The notes under the pieces: model-generated
What the model was told of the DNA's origin: nothing
Database searches by the model: none
The model's input: only the letters and a program-made list of their open reading frames with translations
Position numbers and translations under genes: made by a program
Assembly: GCF_001982615.1 (NCBI RefSeq)
Contig: NZ_MLCO01000031.1
Span: 1 to 57,707, forward strand
DNA: 57,707 nucleotides
Reading direction: 5' to 3'
DNA from: Teichococcus deserti
Lineage (GTDB): Bacteria > Pseudomonadota > Alphaproteobacteria > Acetobacterales > Acetobacteraceae
Shown here: positions 49,079 to 57,707 of the stretch, piece after piece
Position numbering within the stretch: position 1 is the first letter of the stretch
Layout of the letters: every line of letters begins with the position of its first letter

Positions 49079-49911
49079 CCCCGCGCCCCGCCATCGCCGA
49101 GCCGCGCTGGGCCCGCATTGTCCTCTGCGTGCTGGCGCTGGTGCTGCTCGGCCTGTTCCTGGTGCTGCCGCTGGCCGCCGTCTTCACCGAGGCGCTGCGC
49201 CGCGGCTGGGGCCCGGTCTGGCAGGCGCTGTCCGACCCGGACGCCATCGCCGCCATCGAGCTGACCCTGCTGGTCGCCGCCATCGCCGTGCCGGTGAACA
49301 CCATCGGCGGGGTGGCCGGCGCCTGGTGCATCGCCAAGTTCGACTTCCCCGGCCGCGCCCTGCTGCTGGCGCTGATCGAGCTGCCCTTCTCCGTCTCGCC
49401 GGTGATCTCCGGCCTGGTCTGGGTGCTGCTGTTCGGCGCGCATGGCTGGTTCGGGCCCTGGCTGCAGGCGCATGACCTGCAGATCGTCTTCGCGCTGCCG
49501 GGGCTGGTGCTGGCCACGCTGTTCGTCACCTTCCCCTTCGTCGCCCGCACCCTGATCCCGCTGATGCAGGAGCAGGGCCGCAGCGCCGAGGAAGCCGCCG
49601 CGACCCTCGGCGCCTCCGGCTGGCAGACCTTCTTCCGCGTCACCCTGCCGGAGATCCGCTGGGCGCTGCTCTCCGGCGTGCTGCTCTGCAATGCCCGCGC
49701 CATGGGGGAATTCGGCGCGGTCTCCGTCGTCTCCGGCCATGTGCGGGGAGAGACCAACACCATGCCGCTGCATATCGAGATCCTGTACAACGAGTACCAG
49801 TTCGTCGGCGCCTTCGCGGTGGCGGCGCTGCTGGCGCTGCTGGCCCTGGTGACGCTGGCGGCCAAGGCGCTGCTGGAACGCGGCGGCCCGCGCGGAAGCC
49901 TCGCCGCATGA
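49075..49911 (+). CDS. cysW: Sulfate ABC importer permease CysW
   Basis: A 278-residue permease. [25 protein letters not shown], the EAA loop [21 protein letters not shown] and [20 protein letters not shown] are CysW hallmarks. Both ends overlap their neighbours by four bases (ATGA), so translation runs through the operon. It pairs with CysT to form the membrane channel. Confidence 0.95.
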
Positions 49912-50975
49912 GCCTCGAGCTCCGCGGCCTCAGCCGCCGCTTCGACAACGCCCAGGCGCTGCGCGACATCGCGCTGCAGGTGGATGGCGGGGAATTCGTG
50001 GCGCTGCTGGGCCCTTCGGGCTCGGGCAAGACCACCTTGCTGCGCATCCTGGCCGGGCTCGACTTCCCCGACCAGGGCGAGGTGCGGATCGACGGCCAGG
50101 ACATGGCCCAGGTGCCGGCGCGGCACCGCCGCATCGGCTTCGTCTTCCAGCACTACGCGCTGTTCCGCCATATGACGGTCTTCGAGAACGTCGCCTTCGG
50201 CCTGCGCGTCCGCCCCCGCGCCAGCCGCCCGCCCGAGGCCGAGATCGCCGCCCGCGTCCGCCGCCTGCTGGAGCGGATGCAGATCGCCGAGCTCGAGCGC
50301 CGCCTGCCCGAGCAGATCTCCGGCGGCCAGCGCCAGCGGGTCGCGCTGGCCCGGGCGCTCGCCATCGAGCCGCGCCTGCTGCTGCTGGACGAGCCCTTCG
50401 GCGCCTTGGACGCCGAGGTGCGCAAGGGGCTGCGCCACTGGCTGCGGGCGCTGCATGTCGAGCTCGGCCTGACCAGCCTCTTCGTCACCCATGACCAGGA
50501 CGAGGCCATGGAGCTGGCCGACCGCGTCGCCGTCATGCAGGCCGGCCGCATCGTGCAGTTCGACACCCCGGCCCGCATCCTGGACCAGCCGGCCAATGGC
50601 TTCGTCGCCGGCTTCATCGGCCAGGCGCAACGCTTCGCTGGCCGGCTGACCAGCCAGGAGCTGATCTTCGAAGGCCTGCCCCTGGCCCCGCTGCCGCGCG
50701 CCCTGCTGCTGGGCGAGGCCGCCGCGGGAGCCGGGCAGGGGCCTGCCGAGGCGTTCGTGCGGACCCATGAATGGCAGGCGACGCCCGGGCCGGGCAATGC
50801 CGTGCTGCGCTCGGCGCGGGCCGCAGGCGGCCGGGTCCAGGCCGTCTTCGCCGTCGGGCCGGCGCTGATCGAAGCCGAGATCCCTCCGGGCCTGCTGGAG
50901 CCGGGGGAGACCTGCCAGCTGGACCCGCTGACCGCCCGCGTCTTCCTGGCCGATACGCCTTTCGCCACCGGCTGA
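49908..50975 (+). CDS. cysA: Sulfate ABC importer ATP-binding protein CysA
   Basis: A 355-residue ATPase with an N-terminal ABC domain (Walker [10 protein letters not shown], signature ISGGQRQR, Walker [14 protein letters not shown]-loop [10 protein letters not shown]) and a C-terminal TOBE-like regulatory domain (about 240-350) ending in [15 protein letters not shown]. It energises CysTW. It is followed within 50 bases by a ModE-like DNA-binding gene on the same strand. Confidence 0.95.
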
Positions 50976-51021
50976 GGCATTGCGCGAGAAAATCGACTAT
51001 AGCTCTCCCCGGACGGTGGTG

Positions 51022-51390
51022 ATGGTGGAAGCAATGGCCGAGGCGCGATTGAGCCTGCGCGTCGATCTGGGCGCGCGCCGGCTGGGACCCGGCAAGGTGC
51101 AGCTGCTGGAGGCGATCGCCCGCGACGGCTCGATCTCGGCCGCGGCGCGCAGCCTGGGCATGTCCTATCGCCGGGCCTGGGAGCTGGTGGAGGACCTGAA
51201 CACCACCTTCGGCGCCCCCGTCGCCGCCACGGCGACCGGCGGCAGCAAGGGCGGCGGCGCCCGGCTGACCGAACTGGGCGAGGCGGTGGTGGCGCAGTTC
51301 CGGGCGCTGGAGGCCGCCGCCGCGGCGGCCGCGGCGCCCCATCTCGCGGCGCTGCTGGCCCGCCTGCCAGCGGCCGCCGAAGAGGACTGA
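51022..51390 (+). CDS. ModE/LysR-type winged helix protein without effector domain
   Basis: A short regulator (122 residues from ATG 51022). The DNA-binding part matches the ModE N-terminal winged helix: GKVQLLEAIARDGSISAAARSLGMSYRRAWELVEDLN, then GGSKGGGARLTELGE. The molybdate-binding C-terminal domains of ModE are missing; an Ala-rich helix replaces them. Other starts are possible: ATG 51034 with GTGGAAG upstream, or TTG 50980 four bases after cysA. Because it trails a sulfate importer operon, it may sense sulfate or a related oxyanion by another route, or act as a simple autoregulator. No molybdate genes are nearby. Confidence 0.8.
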   Translation: MVEAMAEARLSLRVDLGARRLGPGKVQLLEAIARDGSISAAARSLGMSYRRAWELVEDLNTTFGAPVAATATGGSKGGGARLTELGEAVVAQFRALEAAAAAAAAPHLAALLARLPAAAEED

Positions 51391-51546
51391 GCCGCGCGTG
51401 GCAATTGAGAGCGATCGCAAGGCTGCTAGGCTGCGCGCGTCGGGCGCGCTGGCTTGCGAGTCGGGCAAGCCGGCCGGGCGCACGGGTTGTTGCGCAGTCT
51501 TCGGGGGCTTCCCATTTCCCCTGCGCCACCCGCGGCTTGCGCCGCT

Positions 51547-51566
51547 TTATCCCCAAGTCATCCACA
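51547..51566 (+). promoter_or_regulatory. Two DnaA-box matches upstream of nrdA
   Basis: TTATCCCCA (51547-51555) and TCATCCACA (51558-51566) each match the DnaA box TTATCCACA at 8 of 9 positions, in the same orientation and 11 bases apart, about one helical turn. DnaA is known to bind upstream of nrdAB in E. coli. The second box overlaps the first NrdR box by five bases. Confidence 0.5.
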
Positions 51567-51608
51567 ACAAGTAGCGTCAGCAGGGCAACCGGCCCCTAGA
51601 TATTGTGT
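51562..51608 (+). promoter_or_regulatory. Pair of NrdR boxes upstream of nrdA
   Basis: CCCCTAGATATTGTGT (51593-51608) matches the NrdR box pattern acaCwAtATaTwGwgt at 13 of 16 positions, and CCACAACAAGTAGCGT (51562-51577) at 11 of 16. Their starts are exactly 31 bases apart, the three-turn spacing typical of NrdR-controlled ribonucleotide reductase promoters. The NrdR repressor gene itself is not in the window. Confidence 0.7.
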
Positions 51609-51747
51609 TTTCGGGGTGGCATTCTCGGGGCCGAGGCATGGAGGTGACGCCCCTCCCGACCGGCTTCCGGCCCCGCCGCCCTTGGGCGCGCGCGGCCAGG
51701 ACCTGTCGTCCGAAATGCCCTCCGCAGCCCAGTTGAAGGCCACCGCC

Positions 51748-54672
51748 ATGTCCGCATACGACACGCTCGCCGATCCCCAAGCCACGTCCGCCGGCAAGCC
51801 CGGCGCCGCGCCGGCGAGCGCGCAGGTGATCCGCCGCGACGGCCGGGCGGCCCCCTTCAACCCGGGCAAGATCAGCATCGCGCTGACCAAGGCCTTCCTG
51901 GCGGTGGAGGGGCAGTCCGCCGCCTCCTCGCACCGCATCCATGAGATCGTGGCGGGGCTGACCGAACAGATCGTCGCCGGCCTGACGCGCCACACCGGCG
52001 CCGACCGGATCTTCCACATCGAGGATGTGCAGGACCAGGTCGAGCTGGCGCTGATGCGCGGCGGCCACCACAAGGTGGCGCGCGCCTATGTGCTCTACCG
52101 CGAGGACCGGGCGCGCGAGCGGGCGGCGGTGGCGGCCGTCAGCACCCCCTCGGCGCCGGCGCTGCAGGTCAAGGGCCGCGACGGCGTGCTGCGGCCGCTG
52201 GACGCCGCGGCCCTGGCGCGCGCGGTGGCCGAGGCCTGCGAGGGGCTGTCCGATGTGACGCCCGAGCCGGTGCTGGCCGAGACCCGGCGCAACCTCTATG
52301 ACGGCATCAGCGAGGACGAGCTGGCCCAGGCGCCGATCCTGGCCGCCCGCACGCTGATCGAGCAGGAGCCCAACTACAGCCAGGTCAGCGCGCGCCTGCT
52401 GCTGGCCGAGCTGCGCCGCGAGGCGCTGGTCTTCGTCGAGGGCACGCCCGCCACCAGCCAGGCCGAGATGGCCGCGCGCTACCCCGAGTATTTCGGCGCC
52501 TATATCGCCCGCGGCATCGAGCACCAGCTGCTGAACCCCGAGCTGGCGCAGTTCGACCTGGCCCGCCTCGGCGCCGCGCTGAAGCCGGAACGCGATCTGC
52601 AGTTCCAGTATCTCGGCTTCCAGACGCTCTACGACCGCTACCTGCAGCAGACCCAGGGCATCCGCTTCGAGATGCCGCAGGCCTTCTTCATGCGCGTCGC
52701 CATGGGGCTGGCGCTGCGCGAGATCGACCGCGAGGCGCGGGCGATCGAGTTCTACGACCTGATCTCCTCCTTCGACTTCATGTGCTCGACGCCGACCCTG
52801 TTCAACAGCGGCACGCGGCATTCCCAGCTTTCTTCCTGCTTCCTGACCAGCGTGCCTGACGACCTGGACGGCATCTTCGGCGCGATCCGTGACAATGCGC
52901 TGCTGGCGAAATATTCGGGCGGCATCGGCAATGCCTGGACCCGGGTGCGCGGCCTCGGCGCGCATATCCGCGGCACCAATGGCCAGAGCCAGGGCATCGT
53001 TCCCTTCCTGAAGGTCGCGAACGACACCGCGATCGCCGTCAACCAGGGCGGCAAGCGCAAGGGCGCGGTCTGCGCCTATCTCGAGACCTGGCATATCGAC
53101 GTCGAGGAGTTCCTCGACCTGCGCAAGAACACCGGCGACGACCGCCGCCGCACGCATGACATGAACACCGCCAACTGGGTGCCGGACCTGTTCATGCAGC
53201 GCGTCGAGGCCGATGGCGAATGGACGCTGTTCTCGCCGGACGAGGTGCCCGACCTGCACGAGCTCTACGGCATCCCCTTCCGCGAAGCCTATGAGCGCTA
53301 CGAGGCCAAGGCCCGGGCCGGCGAGATCAAGGTGCACAAGACGGTGCGCGCGCTCGAGCTGTGGCGCCGCATGCTGACCATGCTGTTCGAGACCGGCCAT
53401 CCCTGGATGACCTTCAAGGACCCGTGCAACCTGCGCTCGCCGCAGCGCCATGCCGGCGTGGTCCACTCGTCCAACCTCTGCACCGAGATCACGCTGAACA
53501 CGTCTGACAGCGAGGTCGCGGTCTGCAACCTGGGCTCGATCAACCTCGGCCAGCATGTGACGGAGAAGGGTCTGGATCGCGACCGGCTGGCGCGCACCAT
53601 CCGCACCGCCATGCGGATGCTGGACAACGTCATCGACGTCAATTTCTACACCATCCCGCAGGCCCGCCGCTCCAACCTGCGCCACCGCCCGGTCGGCATG
53701 GGGCTGATGGGCTACCAGGACGCGCTGCATGCGCTGCGCCTGCCGCTGGCCTCCGACGAGGCGGTGCGCTTCGCCGATGAGAGCATGGAGCTGATCAGCT
53801 ACCACGCCATCGAGGCCTCGGTGGAGCTGGCGGCCGAGCGCGGCGCCTATGCCTCCTTCCCCGGCTCGCTGTGGAGCCAGGGCATCCTGCCGCATGACAG
53901 CGTCGACTTCGTCGCCGAGGCGCGCGGCGGCCTGGACCTGGATCGCTCCGCCGCCCTCGACTGGACCGGCCTGCGCGAGCGGGTGAAGACCATCGGCATG
54001 CGCAACTCCAACGTGATGGCGATCGCGCCGACGGCGACGATCTCCAACATCGTCGGCGCCACCCAGTCGATCGAGCCGACCTTCCGCAACCTCTATGTGA
54101 AGGCCAACATGTCGGGCGACTTCACGGTGGTGAACCCGTCCCTGGTGCGCGACCTGAAGGCGCTGGAGCTCTGGGACCCCGTCATGGTCTCCGACCTGAA
54201 GTATTACGACGGCAGCCTGGGCGCCATCGACCGCATCCCCGCAGAGCTGAAGTCGCTCTACGCCACCGCCTTCGAGGTCGATGTCTCCTGGCTGGTCGAG
54301 GCCGCGGCGCGCCGCCAGAAGTGGATCGACCAGGCGCAGTCGCTGAACCTGTACCTGGCCAATCCGAACGGCCGCAAGCTGGACGCGCTGTACCGCCTGG
54401 CCTGGCGGCGCGGGCTGAAGACCACCTACTACCTGCGCACCCAGAGCGCGACGCATGTCGAGAAGTCGACGCTGAAGACCTCGGACGGCAAGCTGAACGC
54501 GGTGAAGGTGGCGCCCGCCGCCGCGCCGGCGCCGCAGCCCGCCGCCGTGGTCGCGGCCCCGCCGCCGCCGGCCCCCTCCGCCGTGGTGAACGCGGCGCCG
54601 AAGCCGGTGCCGGCGACCGAGGTCGGAAACTTCTGCTCGCTCGACGACCCCACCTGCGAAGCCTGCCAGTAA
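51748..54672 (+). CDS. nrdA: Ribonucleoside-diphosphate reductase class I, alpha (catalytic) subunit NrdA
   Basis: A 974-residue catalytic subunit that reduces NDPs to dNDPs. An ATP-cone lies at about 26-120 (VIRRDGRAAPFNPGKISIAL), and a second, more diverged cone-like region at about 138-228. The barrel follows, with Cys364 (LSSCF), Asn576/Cys578/Glu580 (SNLCTE) as radical site and Cys593 (AVCNLGSINL). The C-terminal redox pair is CEAC (970-973). The Cys364-Cys578 spacing of 214 equals that of E. coli (225/439). E. coli NrdA has 761 residues; the extra length is the second cone and an Ala/Pro linker before the C-terminal tail. ATG 51748 with GAAGG is preferred. nrdB follows after 12 bases. 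Confidence 0.95.
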   Translation: MSAYDTLADPQATSAGKPGAAPASAQVIRRDGRAAPFNPGKISIALTKAFLAVEGQSAASSHRIHEIVAGLTEQIVAGLTRHTGADRIFHIEDVQDQVELALMRGGHHKVARAYVLYREDRARERAAVAAVSTPSAPALQVKGRDGVLRPLDAAALARAVAEACEGLSDVTPEPVLAETRRNLYDGISEDELAQAPILAARTLIEQEPNYSQVSARLLLAELRREALVFVEGTPATSQAEMAARYPEYFGAYIARGIEHQLLNPELAQFDLARLGAALKPERDLQFQYLGFQTLYDRYLQQTQGIRFEMPQAFFMRVAMGLALREIDREARAIEFYDLISSFDFMCSTPTLFNSGTRHSQLSSCFLTSVPDDLDGIFGAIRDNALLAKYSGGIGNAWTRVRGLGAHIRGTNGQSQGIVPFLKVANDTAIAVNQGGKRKGAVCAYLETWHIDVEEFLDLRKNTGDDRRRTHDMNTANWVPDLFMQRVEADGEWTLFSPDEVPDLHELYGIPFREAYERYEAKARAGEIKVHKTVRALELWRRMLTMLFETGHPWMTFKDPCNLRSPQRHAGVVHSSNLCTEITLNTSDSEVAVCNLGSINLGQHVTEKGLDRDRLARTIRTAMRMLDNVIDVNFYTIPQARRSNLRHRPVGMGLMGYQDALHALRLPLASDEAVRFADESMELISYHAIEASVELAAERGAYASFPGSLWSQGILPHDSVDFVAEARGGLDLDRSAALDWTGLRERVKTIGMRNSNVMAIAPTATISNIVGATQSIEPTFRNLYVKANMSGDFTVVNPSLVRDLKALELWDPVMVSDLKYYDGSLGAIDRIPAELKSLYATAFEVDVSWLVEAAARRQKWIDQAQSLNLYLANPNGRKLDALYRLAWRRGLKTTYYLRTQSATHVEKSTLKTSDGKLNAVKVAPAAAPAPQPAAVVAAPPPPAPSAVVNAAPKPVPATEVGNFCSLDDPTCEACQ

Positions 54673-54684
54673 GGAACGGACCTG

Positions 54685-55830
54685 ATGGACACCAACATGC
54701 TCGACTGGTCCGATCCGGCGCCCGTGGCGCCGGCCCCTGGCGCGGCGCCGCAGCCCGCGCAGAAGCTCGAAGCCGGTGATGCCACCGGCCTCGGCGCCAT
54801 CGACGAGAGCGGCGGCCGCGTCTCGGTCGACGACAAGGCGATGATCAATTGCCGCGCCGACGTGAACCAGCTGCTGCCGCTGAAGTACCGCTGGGCCTGG
54901 GAGAAGTATCTCTCGGCCTGCAACAACCACTGGATGCCGACCGAGATCTCCATGCAGGCGGATATCGCCCAGTGGAAGTCGCGCGACGCGCTGACCGAGG
55001 AGGAGCGCCGCGCGATCAAGCGCAACCTTGGCTTCTTCGCCACCAGCGAGAGCCTGGTCGCCAACAACATCGTGCTGGCCGTCTACCGCCACCTGACCAA
55101 CCCGGAATGCCGCCAGTACCTGCTGCGCCAGGCCTTCGAGGAGGCGGTGCACACCCACACCTTCCAGTACATCGTGGAAAGCCTCGGCCTCGACGAGGGC
55201 GAGCTGTTCAACATGTATCGCGAGGTGCCCTCGATCACCGCCAAGGCGGCCTGGGCGCTCAAATACACGCAGAACCTGTCGGATCCGGCCTTCGCCACCG
55301 GCACGCCGGACAACGACCGCGCCTTCCTGCGCGACCTCATCGCCTTCTACGTCGTCTTCGAAGGCATGTGGTTCTACACCGGCTTCGCGCAGATCCTGTC
55401 GCTGGGCCGGCGCGGGCGGATGGTCGGCATCGCCGAGCAGTACCAGTACATCCTGCGCGACGAGAGCATCCACCTGAACTTCGGCATCGACGTGATCAAC
55501 CAGATCCGCGCCGAGAATCCGGGGCTCTGGACCCGCGAATTCGCGGAGGAGGTGCGCGGCATGCTGCGCGAGGCCTGCGAGCTGGAGGTGGCCTATGGCC
55601 GCGACACCATGCCGCGCGGCTTCCTCGGGCTGAACGCCGCGCTCTGCGAGCAGTACATGCATTTCATCACCAACCGGCGCTGCGCCCAGCTGGCGCTCGC
55701 CCCGGTCTTCCCGGAGGCGGAGAACCCGTTCCCCTGGATGTCCGAGGTGATGGACCTGAAGAAGGAGAAGAACTTCTTCGAGACCCGCGTCATCGAGTAC
55801 CAGAATGGCGGCGCGCTGAGCTGGGACTGA
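54685..55830 (+). CDS. nrdB: Ribonucleoside-diphosphate reductase class I beta subunit NrdB, class Ic-like (Phe at radical Tyr site)
   Basis: A 381-residue ferritin-fold radical subunit. Metal ligands align as Glu122 ([10 protein letters not shown]), Glu153 and His156 ([10 protein letters not shown]), Glu226 (VFEGMWF), and Glu260 and His263 (RDESIH). Compared with E. coli Asp84, Glu115, His118, Tyr122, Glu204, Glu238, His241, the first ligand is Glu instead of Asp, and the radical tyrosine position is Phe160. The 31-residue spacing from first to second ligand equals E. coli. Both changes mark class Ic enzymes like that of Chlamydia trachomatis, which use a Mn(IV)/Fe(III) centre. C-terminal Tyr372 (VIEYQNGG) for radical transfer is present. 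AAGGAA precedes ATG 54685. Confidence 0.95.
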
Positions 55831-55841
55831 CGCCGCGGCTG

Positions 55842-55864
55842 CGGGGCGGCCGCGCGCCGCCCCG
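55842..55864 (+). terminator. Perfect 9-bp GC hairpin after nrdB
   Basis: CGGGGCGGC (55842-55850), loop CGCGC, GCCGCCCCG (55856-55864), 11 bases after the nrdB stop. No T-run follows, so termination efficiency is uncertain. The rest of the 165-base gap to the next gene holds no recognisable promoter. Confidence 0.5.
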
Positions 55865-55995
55865 TGCCGGCCCTGGCGTTCCTGTGATCGTGACCTTGGC
55901 CGCCGGCGCTCGACCCGGCGGGCGCCCTGGTCGATGCTGCTTCCTCCGGTCTCGCAACGAGTCCATCCGCCCCTGCCGCGAGAGGAAGCCCTGCC

Positions 55996-57570
55996 ATGGC
56001 CCGCCCCCTTCCCGGATCCGCTCGTCGCCGGACGCTCGGCGCCCTGGCGGGGACCGGTCTGCTGGCGGCCTGCGGCGCCGCATCCCCGCGGCTGCGCCTG
56101 GGCGACAGCCCGCCCGAGGACGTGCCGCCGCTGGTCCCGGACGCGCTGGAGCGGGCGCTGGCCGCTCTGCCAGAGGATGTCGAGGCGATCCGCGGGCCGG
56201 CCGGCGTGCCCGGCGTCGCGGTGGCGGTGGTCGCCGGCGGCCAGCGGCGCTTCGCCCGCGGCTTCGGCCGGCGCCGCATCGACCAGGCCGCGCCGGTGAC
56301 GACCGAGACCGTCTTCCAGATCGCCTCGCTGTCCAAGCCGCTCGCCGCCAGCGTCGTCGCCACCCAGGTCGCCGCCGGCCGCTGCGCCTGGGACGATCCG
56401 GCGCAGCGCCATCTGCCCTGGCTGCGGCTGTCCGACCCCGGGATCGCCGCCCGCGCCAGCATCGGCGACTTCATGGCGCATCGCACGGGCCTGCCCGCCT
56501 ATGCCGGCGACCAGCTGGAGGATCTGGGCTTCGGCCGCCGCGCCATCCTGGAGCGGCTGCGGCTGCTGCCGCTGCGGCCGTTCCGCGCCTCCTACGCCTA
56601 CAGCAATTTCGGCCTCACGCTGGGCGCCGAGGCCGCCGCCGCAGCCGCCGGCCAGGACTGGGAAAGCCTGGCGGAGAGCGCGCTCTACCGGCCGCTCGGC
56701 ATGGGCGCCACCAGCTCCCGCCATGCCGATTTCCTGGCGCGCGCCGACCGCGCCGTCCTGCATGCCCGCACGCCCGAGGGGTTCCGCCCGCTCTACGACC
56801 GCGACGCCGATGCGCAGTCGCCGGCCGGCGGCGTGTCTTCCAATGTGCTGGACCTGGCGGCCTGGATGACCATGCTGCTGGCCGGCGGCGCGCCGCTGGT
56901 GCCGGCCGAGGCGCTGGCGCCGGCCTTCCAGCCGCAGGCCCTCTCCGCACCCGGCCATGTCCCCGGCGCGCGTCCCGGCTTCTACGGCTTCGGCTTCAAT
57001 GTCGGCGTGGGTCCTGGCGGACGCGTGATGCTGGGCCATTCCGGGGCCTTCCTGCTGGGCGGCGCCACGGCGATGCAGCTGCTGCCGGGCGAGGGCATCG
57101 GCATCGTCGTGCTGACCAATGCCGCGCCGGTCGGCGTCGCCGAGGCCATCGCCGCGACCTTCCTCGACCGGCTGCAATTCGGCGCGCCGCAGCGGGACTG
57201 GGCCGCCACCTTCGGAGAGGCCTTCGCCGCCTTCTTCGCGCCGGAGGGCGACCTGGCCGGGAAGACGCCGCCGGTCCCCGCCACCGCGCCGCGCGCGCCC
57301 GAGGCCTGTCTCGGCCGCTACGACAATGCCTTTCACGGCCCGGCCGAGGTGGTGCGTGGACCGTCGGGCCTGCTGCTGCGCCTGGGTCCGAAAGCGGTGG
57401 ACATGCCGCTGCTGCCCTGGGATGGCGATGACTTCGCCATGGCGCCGGGTGGCGAGAACGCGCCGCCAGGCTCGCTGGCCAGCCTCCGCTTCGACATGGC
57501 AGGCGGGCGGGCTGTCGGGTTTCGCGCGCAGTACTACGACGCCAGCGGGCTGGGCCGCTGGACGCGCTGA
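55996..57570 (+). CDS. Serine hydrolase of the class C beta-lactamase/penicillin-binding protein family, lipoprotein
   Basis: A 524-residue protein. The lipobox LLAAC (Cys26) after a twin-arginine-like RRRTLGALAG suggests a membrane-anchored exported lipoprotein. Catalytic motifs are SxxK (Ser111-Leu-Ser-Lys114) and YSN (202-204), with HSG in the third-motif position (MLGHSGAF) in place of KTG, as in esterases and peptidases of this family rather than true AmpC. A C-terminal beta domain (about 415-524) follows, as in D-aminopeptidase-like members. ATG 55996 follows GAGAGGAAG. It is probably a peptidase or esterase in the cell envelope. Confidence 0.9.
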   Translation: MARPLPGSARRRTLGALAGTGLLAACGAASPRLRLGDSPPEDVPPLVPDALERALAALPEDVEAIRGPAGVPGVAVAVVAGGQRRFARGFGRRRIDQAAPVTTETVFQIASLSKPLAASVVATQVAAGRCAWDDPAQRHLPWLRLSDPGIAARASIGDFMAHRTGLPAYAGDQLEDLGFGRRAILERLRLLPLRPFRASYAYSNFGLTLGAEAAAAAAGQDWESLAESALYRPLGMGATSSRHADFLARADRAVLHARTPEGFRPLYDRDADAQSPAGGVSSNVLDLAAWMTMLLAGGAPLVPAEALAPAFQPQALSAPGHVPGARPGFYGFGFNVGVGPGGRVMLGHSGAFLLGGATAMQLLPGEGIGIVVLTNAAPVGVAEAIAATFLDRLQFGAPQRDWAATFGEAFAAFFAPEGDLAGKTPPVPATAPRAPEACLGRYDNAFHGPAEVVRGPSGLLLRLGPKAVDMPLLPWDGDDFAMAPGGENAPPGSLASLRFDMAGGRAVGFRAQYYDASGLGRWTR

Positions 57571-57571
57571 G

Positions 57572-57707
57572 CTAGCGCGGCCCACCCGGCGGCGGACCGC
57601 CGCCCATCCCGCCCGGTCCCCCGAACGGCATGCGGGGCGGCAGAGCGCCGGGCCCAGAGCCCGGCGCTCTGCCGCCCCGCATGCCGTTCGGGGGACCGGG
57701 CGGGATG
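57572..57707 (-). CDS. Possible C-terminus of a Gly/Pro-rich protein (partial, overlaps the terminal palindrome)
   Basis: On the minus strand an open frame enters from the window edge and ends with ...LPPRMPFGGPGGMGGGPPPGGPR and TAG at 57574-57572, one base after the serine hydrolase stop. Gly/Pro/Met-rich tails like this occur at the ends of several bacterial proteins, including Ffh, but nothing upstream is visible. Because the outer 103 bases are a perfect inverted repeat, the part right of 57656 may not be real sequence of this gene. Confidence 0.3.
   Translation of the reverse strand, partial: IPPGPPNGMRGGRAPGSGPGALPPRMPFGGPGGMGGGPPPGGPR
57605..57707. repeat. Perfect 49-bp inverted repeat with 5-base loop at the window end
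   Basis: Bases 57605-57653 are the exact reverse complement of 57659-57707, with CCAGA between. The right arm ends on the last base, so the palindrome may extend further. It is far longer than any terminator here and crosses apparent coding sequence. Either a large natural palindrome or a fold-back artefact at a contig end. Confidence 0.95.

Follow-up and report, generated by a model that had tools for sequence, protein, structure and literature searches.

The nrdB gene at positions 54685-55830 of a 57,707-nucleotide stretch of Teichococcus deserti DNA (contig NZ_MLCO01000031.1, positions 1 to 57,707; this whole stretch is hereafter the window) raises the question of which class of ribonucleotide reductase it serves, and of what such an enzyme contributes to its host. 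An earlier note on this DNA had read a phenylalanine at the site of the radical tyrosine and a glutamate as the first metal ligand, and had assigned the protein to class Ic. Having compared the locus with solved structures, protein family models and related genomes, we consider it very probable that the window nrdAB (51748-55830) encodes an intact class Ic reductase with an NrdB of the Mn/Fe type, an accessory second enzyme beside a general class Ia reductase.

NrdB, its metal site and its gene context

The open frame at 54685-55830 on the forward strand encodes 381 amino acids and ends in a stop codon. The catalytic partner NrdA is encoded directly 5' of nrdB; its stop codon precedes the nrdB start by 12 bases, and the two genes probably form one operon. 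The locus has the following features:

51593..51608, +, NrdR-box-like site 5' of nrdA, with core CTAGATATTG at 51596-51605; putative function
51748..54672, +, nrdA, catalytic subunit, 974 aa if the ATG at 51748, picked by eye, is the start; NF005544 1658 bits (cut-off 965)
51823..52113, +, first ATP-cone of NrdA, 70.6 bits (cut-off 25.8)
52165..52419, +, second ATP-cone of NrdA, 32.9 bits (cut-off 25.8)
54685..55830, +, nrdB, predicted class Ic R2 subunit, 381 aa; PF00268 308 bits, NF005550 667 bits (cut-off 309)
55048..55050, +, Glu122 codon, first metal ligand (Asp in class Ia)
55141..55152, +, ligand motif E153-x-x-H156
55162..55164, +, Phe160 codon, at the site of the radical Tyr
55360..55362, +, Glu226 codon, metal ligand
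55447..55473, +, Y255 (activation Tyr position), D259 and ligands E260 and H263
55798..55800, +, Tyr372 codon, C-terminal radical-transfer Tyr (Chlamydia R2 Y338)

Both ATP-cones exceed their cut-off, in agreement with the earlier reading of extra ATP-cone sequence in NrdA. The nrdAB pair is adjoined by an ABC ATPase gene and a gene of the LysR-type HTH family. A protein of the beta-lactamase fold is encoded 3' of nrdB (55996-57570, +; PF00144, 185 bits), and an antisense open frame of 2002 aa (51577-57585, -), presumably an artefact of high GC content, spans the entire nrdAB region.

The NrdB site residues, as read from the translation, are E122, E153, H156, F160, E226, E260 and H263. On alignment with the R2 protein of Chlamydia trachomatis the six ligands fall on E89, E120, H123, E193, E227 and H230, and F160 falls on F127 (Chlamydia numbering is that of 4d8f minus its 20-residue tag). 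This bears out the earlier proposal of Glu122 as first ligand, Phe160 at the radical site and five other ligands kept, and places Phe, not Tyr, at the radical site. W83, F230, Y255, D259 and Y372 align in turn with Chlamydia W51, F197, Y222, D226 and Y338, among which we take W51, D226, Y338 and Y222 to be the radical transfer and activation residues. In the PDB alignment the radical-site column is Phe in 1syy and Tyr in 2ani, the latter presumably an engineered mutant.

A phmmer search of the PDB ranked 6y2n first (670 bits), followed by the Chlamydia R2 entries 4d8f, 1syy and 2ani (440-442 bits) and, next, 7ail (154 bits). According to PMC8463856, a Phe/Glu pair defines class Ic, Tyr/Asp classes Ia and Ib, and Tyr/Glu class Id; NrdB has Phe/Glu, and so neither the Tyr/Glu of class Id nor the Tyr/Asp of classes Ia and Ib. 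The pair, together with the top four PDB chains (6y2n and the three from Chlamydia), supports the class Ic assignment as far as sequence can carry it. Some likeness extends to the R2-like ligand-binding oxidases (R2lox), distant relatives which likewise have a Mn/Fe site: 7qbp and 3ee4 are among the PDB matches, and NF006200 scores 56 bits. That NrdB is such an oxidase and not a reductase subunit is nonetheless barely conceivable, since the best R2lox model reaches only 56 of the required 194 bits, the gene lies close behind a full nrdA, and Y372 and the surrounding tail are conserved.

For the class Ic reading we infer a cofactor, mechanism, allosteric control and role along the following lines. 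NrdB would take up Mn at site 1 and Fe at site 2, and reaction of this Mn/Fe form with O2 or H2O2 would yield a Mn(IV)/Fe(III) centre. The oxidising equivalent would then reach the NrdA catalytic cysteine by way of W83/D259 and Y372, with no tyrosyl radical involved, and the N-terminal pair of ATP-cones in NrdA would switch activity in response to ATP and dATP. In the genus, the class Ic enzyme would serve as an accessory second reductase and class Ia as the general one. Section 6 of PMC8463856 gives Mn(IV)/Fe(III) as the active state of the Chlamydia enzyme, arising by reaction with O2 or H2O2, and by analogy this chemistry may carry over to the window NrdB, at 56% identity and across a long branch; section 12 of a 2014 review (PMC4118035) states that Mn/Fe occupancy in vivo had, as of then, been demonstrated for no R2c. 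A tyrosine-free class I R2 that uses Mn2 or Fe2 instead of Mn/Fe is an improbable alternative: metal identity is unreadable from sequence and the Chlamydia scaffold is described as prone to mismetallation (PMC8463856, section 6), but Phe/Glu is the class Ic pairing, as opposed to Tyr/Glu in class Id and Tyr/Asp in classes Ia and Ib (PMC8463856), and 5olk scores only 64.5 bits against 670 for 6y2n and 442 for 4d8f.

Strictness and descent of the Glu/Phe pair

At least 419 relatives were confirmed in a scan of genome contigs, of which the best 80, a sample biased to close kin, comprise 78 with Glu/Phe and two with Asp/Tyr (L133 and L134); 68 of these 80 are, by record title, from alphaproteobacteria or actinomycetes. 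The pair is present in all seven genomes of the window's genus that have class Ic (its own and six others) and, because it recurs in these carriers and in all but two of the 80 best loci, it is neither chance nor a read error.

The first residue reading covered 128 of 134 loci, the remainder being L004, L005, L006 (no nrdB), L034, L048 and L052. A wider set of 213 rows, made up of the best relatives and loci from the genus, the family, the Pseudomonadota and plasmids, divided into 103 Glu/Phe rows, 67 Asp/Tyr rows with Tyr at the Y255 position, 37 Asp/Tyr rows with Trp there, which are ordinary class Ia, and six unreadable rows (L103, L107, L032, L002, L023 and L224, all but the last read earlier, and L224 being the L002 gene). 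Among the 156 rows with at least 50% identity, a count from which three copies of the window itself and any row that could not be read at site 122 had been removed, there were 99 Glu/Phe, 57 Asp/Tyr and no mixed pairs; these row counts include near copies, and hence number sequences, not events. Among 398 sampled Pseudomonadota genomes, 72 gave a match at 1e-60, counted without second copies in G452, G501 and G524: 10 were Glu/Phe, 60 Asp/Tyr and two unread (G343, G379). Trp229 was considered as a class Ic marker and rejected; it is carried by 99/99 Glu/Phe rows, but Chlamydia has Phe.

Related sequences also occur in phages and on a plasmid. Pseudomonas phages of the vB_PpuM group (H33-H41) encode NrdB relatives of about 45% identity whose match is broken into two parts across about 1.75 kb, as though an insert interrupted them. 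On Acidithiobacillus caldus plasmid p1 (L206), an Asp/Tyr nrdB lies near parA/parB, and its 5' neighbour is not nrdA, giving only a weak GntR match.

A tree of R2 proteins was built from 59 rows, that is, 51 of 166 candidates after an 88% identity filter plus eight others. With all columns, the Glu/Phe rows fell on one side of a single branch (93/93; 91% of bootstraps). When the two site columns were removed, the best tree required two changes, and a single change was recovered in 48% of bootstraps; when Chlamydia was removed as well, only 13% were compatible with Glu/Phe and Asp/Tyr having interchanged just once, so that the site may have arisen once or twice. Constraining the 30 Glu/Phe rows to one clade was not rejected (AU p 0.494). 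The Chlamydia R2 branch measures 2.76-2.92 changes per column and, because it is so long, the placement of Chlamydia is unsure.

Co-resident reductases and possible upstream control

The earlier statement that the window holds no second reductase extends to its whole contig (C234), where PF00268 and PF02867 searches gave no other match, and does not extend to the genome: a class Ia NrdB with Asp/Tyr was found by the PF00268 search on contig C419, and a class Ia NrdA by the PF02867 search on contig C6 (NF006577, 1023 bits, cut-off 620). Class Ia NrdA and NrdB were present in 12/12 genomes searched from the genus, and contamination as the source of the class Ia genes was rejected accordingly. 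Since a class Ia Asp/Tyr enzyme shares the genome, the class Ic genes do not imply that the cell depends on manganese or resists radical scavengers, and the consequences for the organism that the earlier note suggested are weakened. The manganese transporter Nramp (PF01566), tried as a marker of class Ic, does not discriminate carriers from non-carriers, being present in 12/12 genus genomes whether or not they have class Ic. As for the B12-dependent class II reductase NrdJ, the PF02867 search of the 12 genus genomes gave no full-length match. A weak barrel-domain match does occur in 11/12 of them, for example in G000 on contig C224 (L006), L228 and L229; two of the barrel frames, of 553 and 563 aa, reach 119 and 134 bits against the NrdJ cut-off of 1737, with barrel and TSCPD pieces, and these frames are perhaps a relic of a class II reductase or a repurposed one.

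Class Ic was found in 7/13 genomes of the genus, the thirteenth (G179) giving one match that is at class Ia level by score, and so it looks accessory there. In a sample of 200 genomes from the family, only G000, G007 and G160 gave matches as high as class Ic; a further family member (G032) has a Tyr-bearing cousin of 45% identity (L028), with Asp/Tyr and the order nrdA then nrdB. Relatives of the window's upstream flank, at 79-82% DNA identity, occur in six genomes (G001, G002, G006, G008, G009 and G010), where the match stops at window position 50710-50930, short of nrdA. Class Ic and this flank are 2 Mb apart on one contig in G008 and on separate contigs in G002, and only G011 has flank and nrdAB in one stretch like the window. 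The upstream DNA of the seven class Ic carriers is of several unlike kinds, which fits gain, loss or relocation of class Ic within the genus.

Cobalamin riboswitches (RF00174) were detected upstream of nrdA in 18/28 Glu/Phe loci and in L221 of G160; in all 19 the gap from the riboswitch end to the first nrdA match is 98-437 bases. One of the 10 loci in which none was detected, L120 of a Caldilineaceae MAG, has a Glu/Phe nrdB and no nrdA found on the same strand within 13 kb. The three Asp/Tyr loci scanned (L133, L134, L205) gave no riboswitch. One before the window nrdA was sought and discarded as a candidate, as none appeared in 49500-57707 down to E = 1, and none was found at the gathering threshold in L215-L220, where two of the contigs are those of L055 and L056.

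NrdJ exceeded the TIGR02504 cut-off in 17/21 class Ic genomes (in G618 one bit puts the class Ic NrdA over it as well, alongside a true NrdJ). With NrdJ present, a riboswitch precedes the class Ic nrdA in 14/17 genomes (the others being L070, L091 and L124), and with NrdJ absent in 0/4 (L055, L056, L072 and L132); these rows are related by descent, and the contrast is to be read as a pattern, not as a significance test. Among the class Ic genomes searched, only those of L055 and L056, which belong to the window's genus, also gave a class Ia NrdB; two class Ic sets occur in the genome of L063, and for L072 and L132 these searches detected no reductase other than class Ic. A B12-controlled class I enzyme that stands in for class II is known from earlier work and is not a new idea. 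A table in PMC3019208 lists archaeal Tyr-to-Phe R2 genes together with nrdJ, and our search of an open-access library returned no link between class Ic and the cobalamin riboswitch, the text it covered of a mycobacterial paper (PMC4428469) included. On a Methylocella tundrae plasmid (L207), class Ic nrdAB and metE are neighbours, each preceded by its own cobalamin riboswitch, so that one plasmid carries two enzymes independent of B12; G160 (L027) likewise has a metE-like frame 3' of its class Ic nrdB (793 bits to NF003556).

A different element precedes the window nrdA. The known NrdR box consensus was used in a search of the window and gave one match, at 51593-51608, with three mismatches (0.02 expected by shuffling). 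Its core, CTAGATRTTG, occurs at two places in the 6.25 Mb genome, the window and a position within open frames on contig C588, as against 13 for the reversed control pattern. A wider form, CTAGWYRTTG, lies 5' of nrdA in 6/7 genus carriers (absent in L218) and was not found in the class Ia loci examined, and nrdR is present in 12/12 genus genomes. These observations suggest that NrdR may bind the candidate site; the full consensus, at up to four mismatches on one strand, had no match in L215-L220 or the class Ia loci, which calls for caution in naming the site an NrdR box. Upstream of L072, in a Bradyrhizobiaceae MAG, there is an NrdR-box-like site with two mismatches, and no riboswitch was found there.

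A silent or decaying class Ic copy, with class Ia carrying the load, might be expected to look in part like this: class Ia in 12/12 genus genomes, class Ic in 7/13 amid varying surroundings, and at the window nrdA none of the riboswitch common in relatives. We regard decay as very unlikely, given that the nrdA and nrdB frames are both intact, that 11 scored NrdB sites are identical across all genus copies and that the upstream motif is kept in 6/7 genus loci.

What the class Ic enzyme is for may be approached from the same distribution. We put forward, tentatively and at less than even confidence, that class Ic is in most of the class Ic genomes tested a B12-independent stand-in for class II under cobalamin riboswitch control, and that in this genus it was rewired into a metal or oxidant backup. 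Were this true, a single cell would be able to supply its DNA precursors by either an Fe-Tyr or a Mn/Fe enzyme, and genus strains with and without class Ic would form a natural test of why the Mn/Fe centre evolved. Section 12 of PMC4118035, the 2014 review, leaves the reason for the Mn/Fe centre open between iron shortage and resistance to nitric oxide and peroxide, and describes class Ic as occurring primarily in extremophiles and pathogens. A genus with constant class Ia and variable class Ic permits strain comparisons and gene-removal tests.

Comparison with known class I reductases

The Glu122/Phe160 NrdB is, to judge from its residues and homologues, a further example of the known class Ic enzymes. 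Its closest solved structure, 6y2n, shares 84% identity over the aligned core, which starts after the first 43 residues of the window NrdB, and has the same Glu/Phe site and transfer residues; it comes from an actinomycete, being the R2 of Saccharopolyspora erythraea (PMC7467353), and the accessible text of that paper is silent on its metal and activity. By the definition in PMC8463856, class Id R2 proteins resemble the window NrdB in having Glu as first ligand but carry Tyr at the radical site.

The Pseudomonas-type class Ia NrdB proteins (L204 and the 56 other Asp/Tyr rows) are 55-68% identical to the window NrdB, and L204 has the same gene order, nrdA then nrdB. They differ from it in having Val64, Gln86 and Phe229 (57/57 rows) and Ala159 (55/57), and the Pseudomonas class Ia reductase works by a tyrosyl radical. 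The structure 5olk, of low score here, we take to be the Flavobacterium class Id R2. The class Ia NrdB of the window's own genome (L002, contig C419) belongs to the same PF00268 R2 family and shares the ExxH motifs, but is only 28% identical to the window NrdB and has Asp/Tyr, with Trp at the Y255 position.

Chlamydia trachomatis R2 (1syy, 4d8f) is 56% identical to the window NrdB and matches it at all compared site residues, but has Phe in place of Trp229. In Chlamydia, to our knowledge, class Ic is the sole ribonucleotide reductase, whereas the window's genome has class Ia as well; what this locus adds to the known systems is a class Ic enzyme that is optional within its genus and shares a genome with class Ia.
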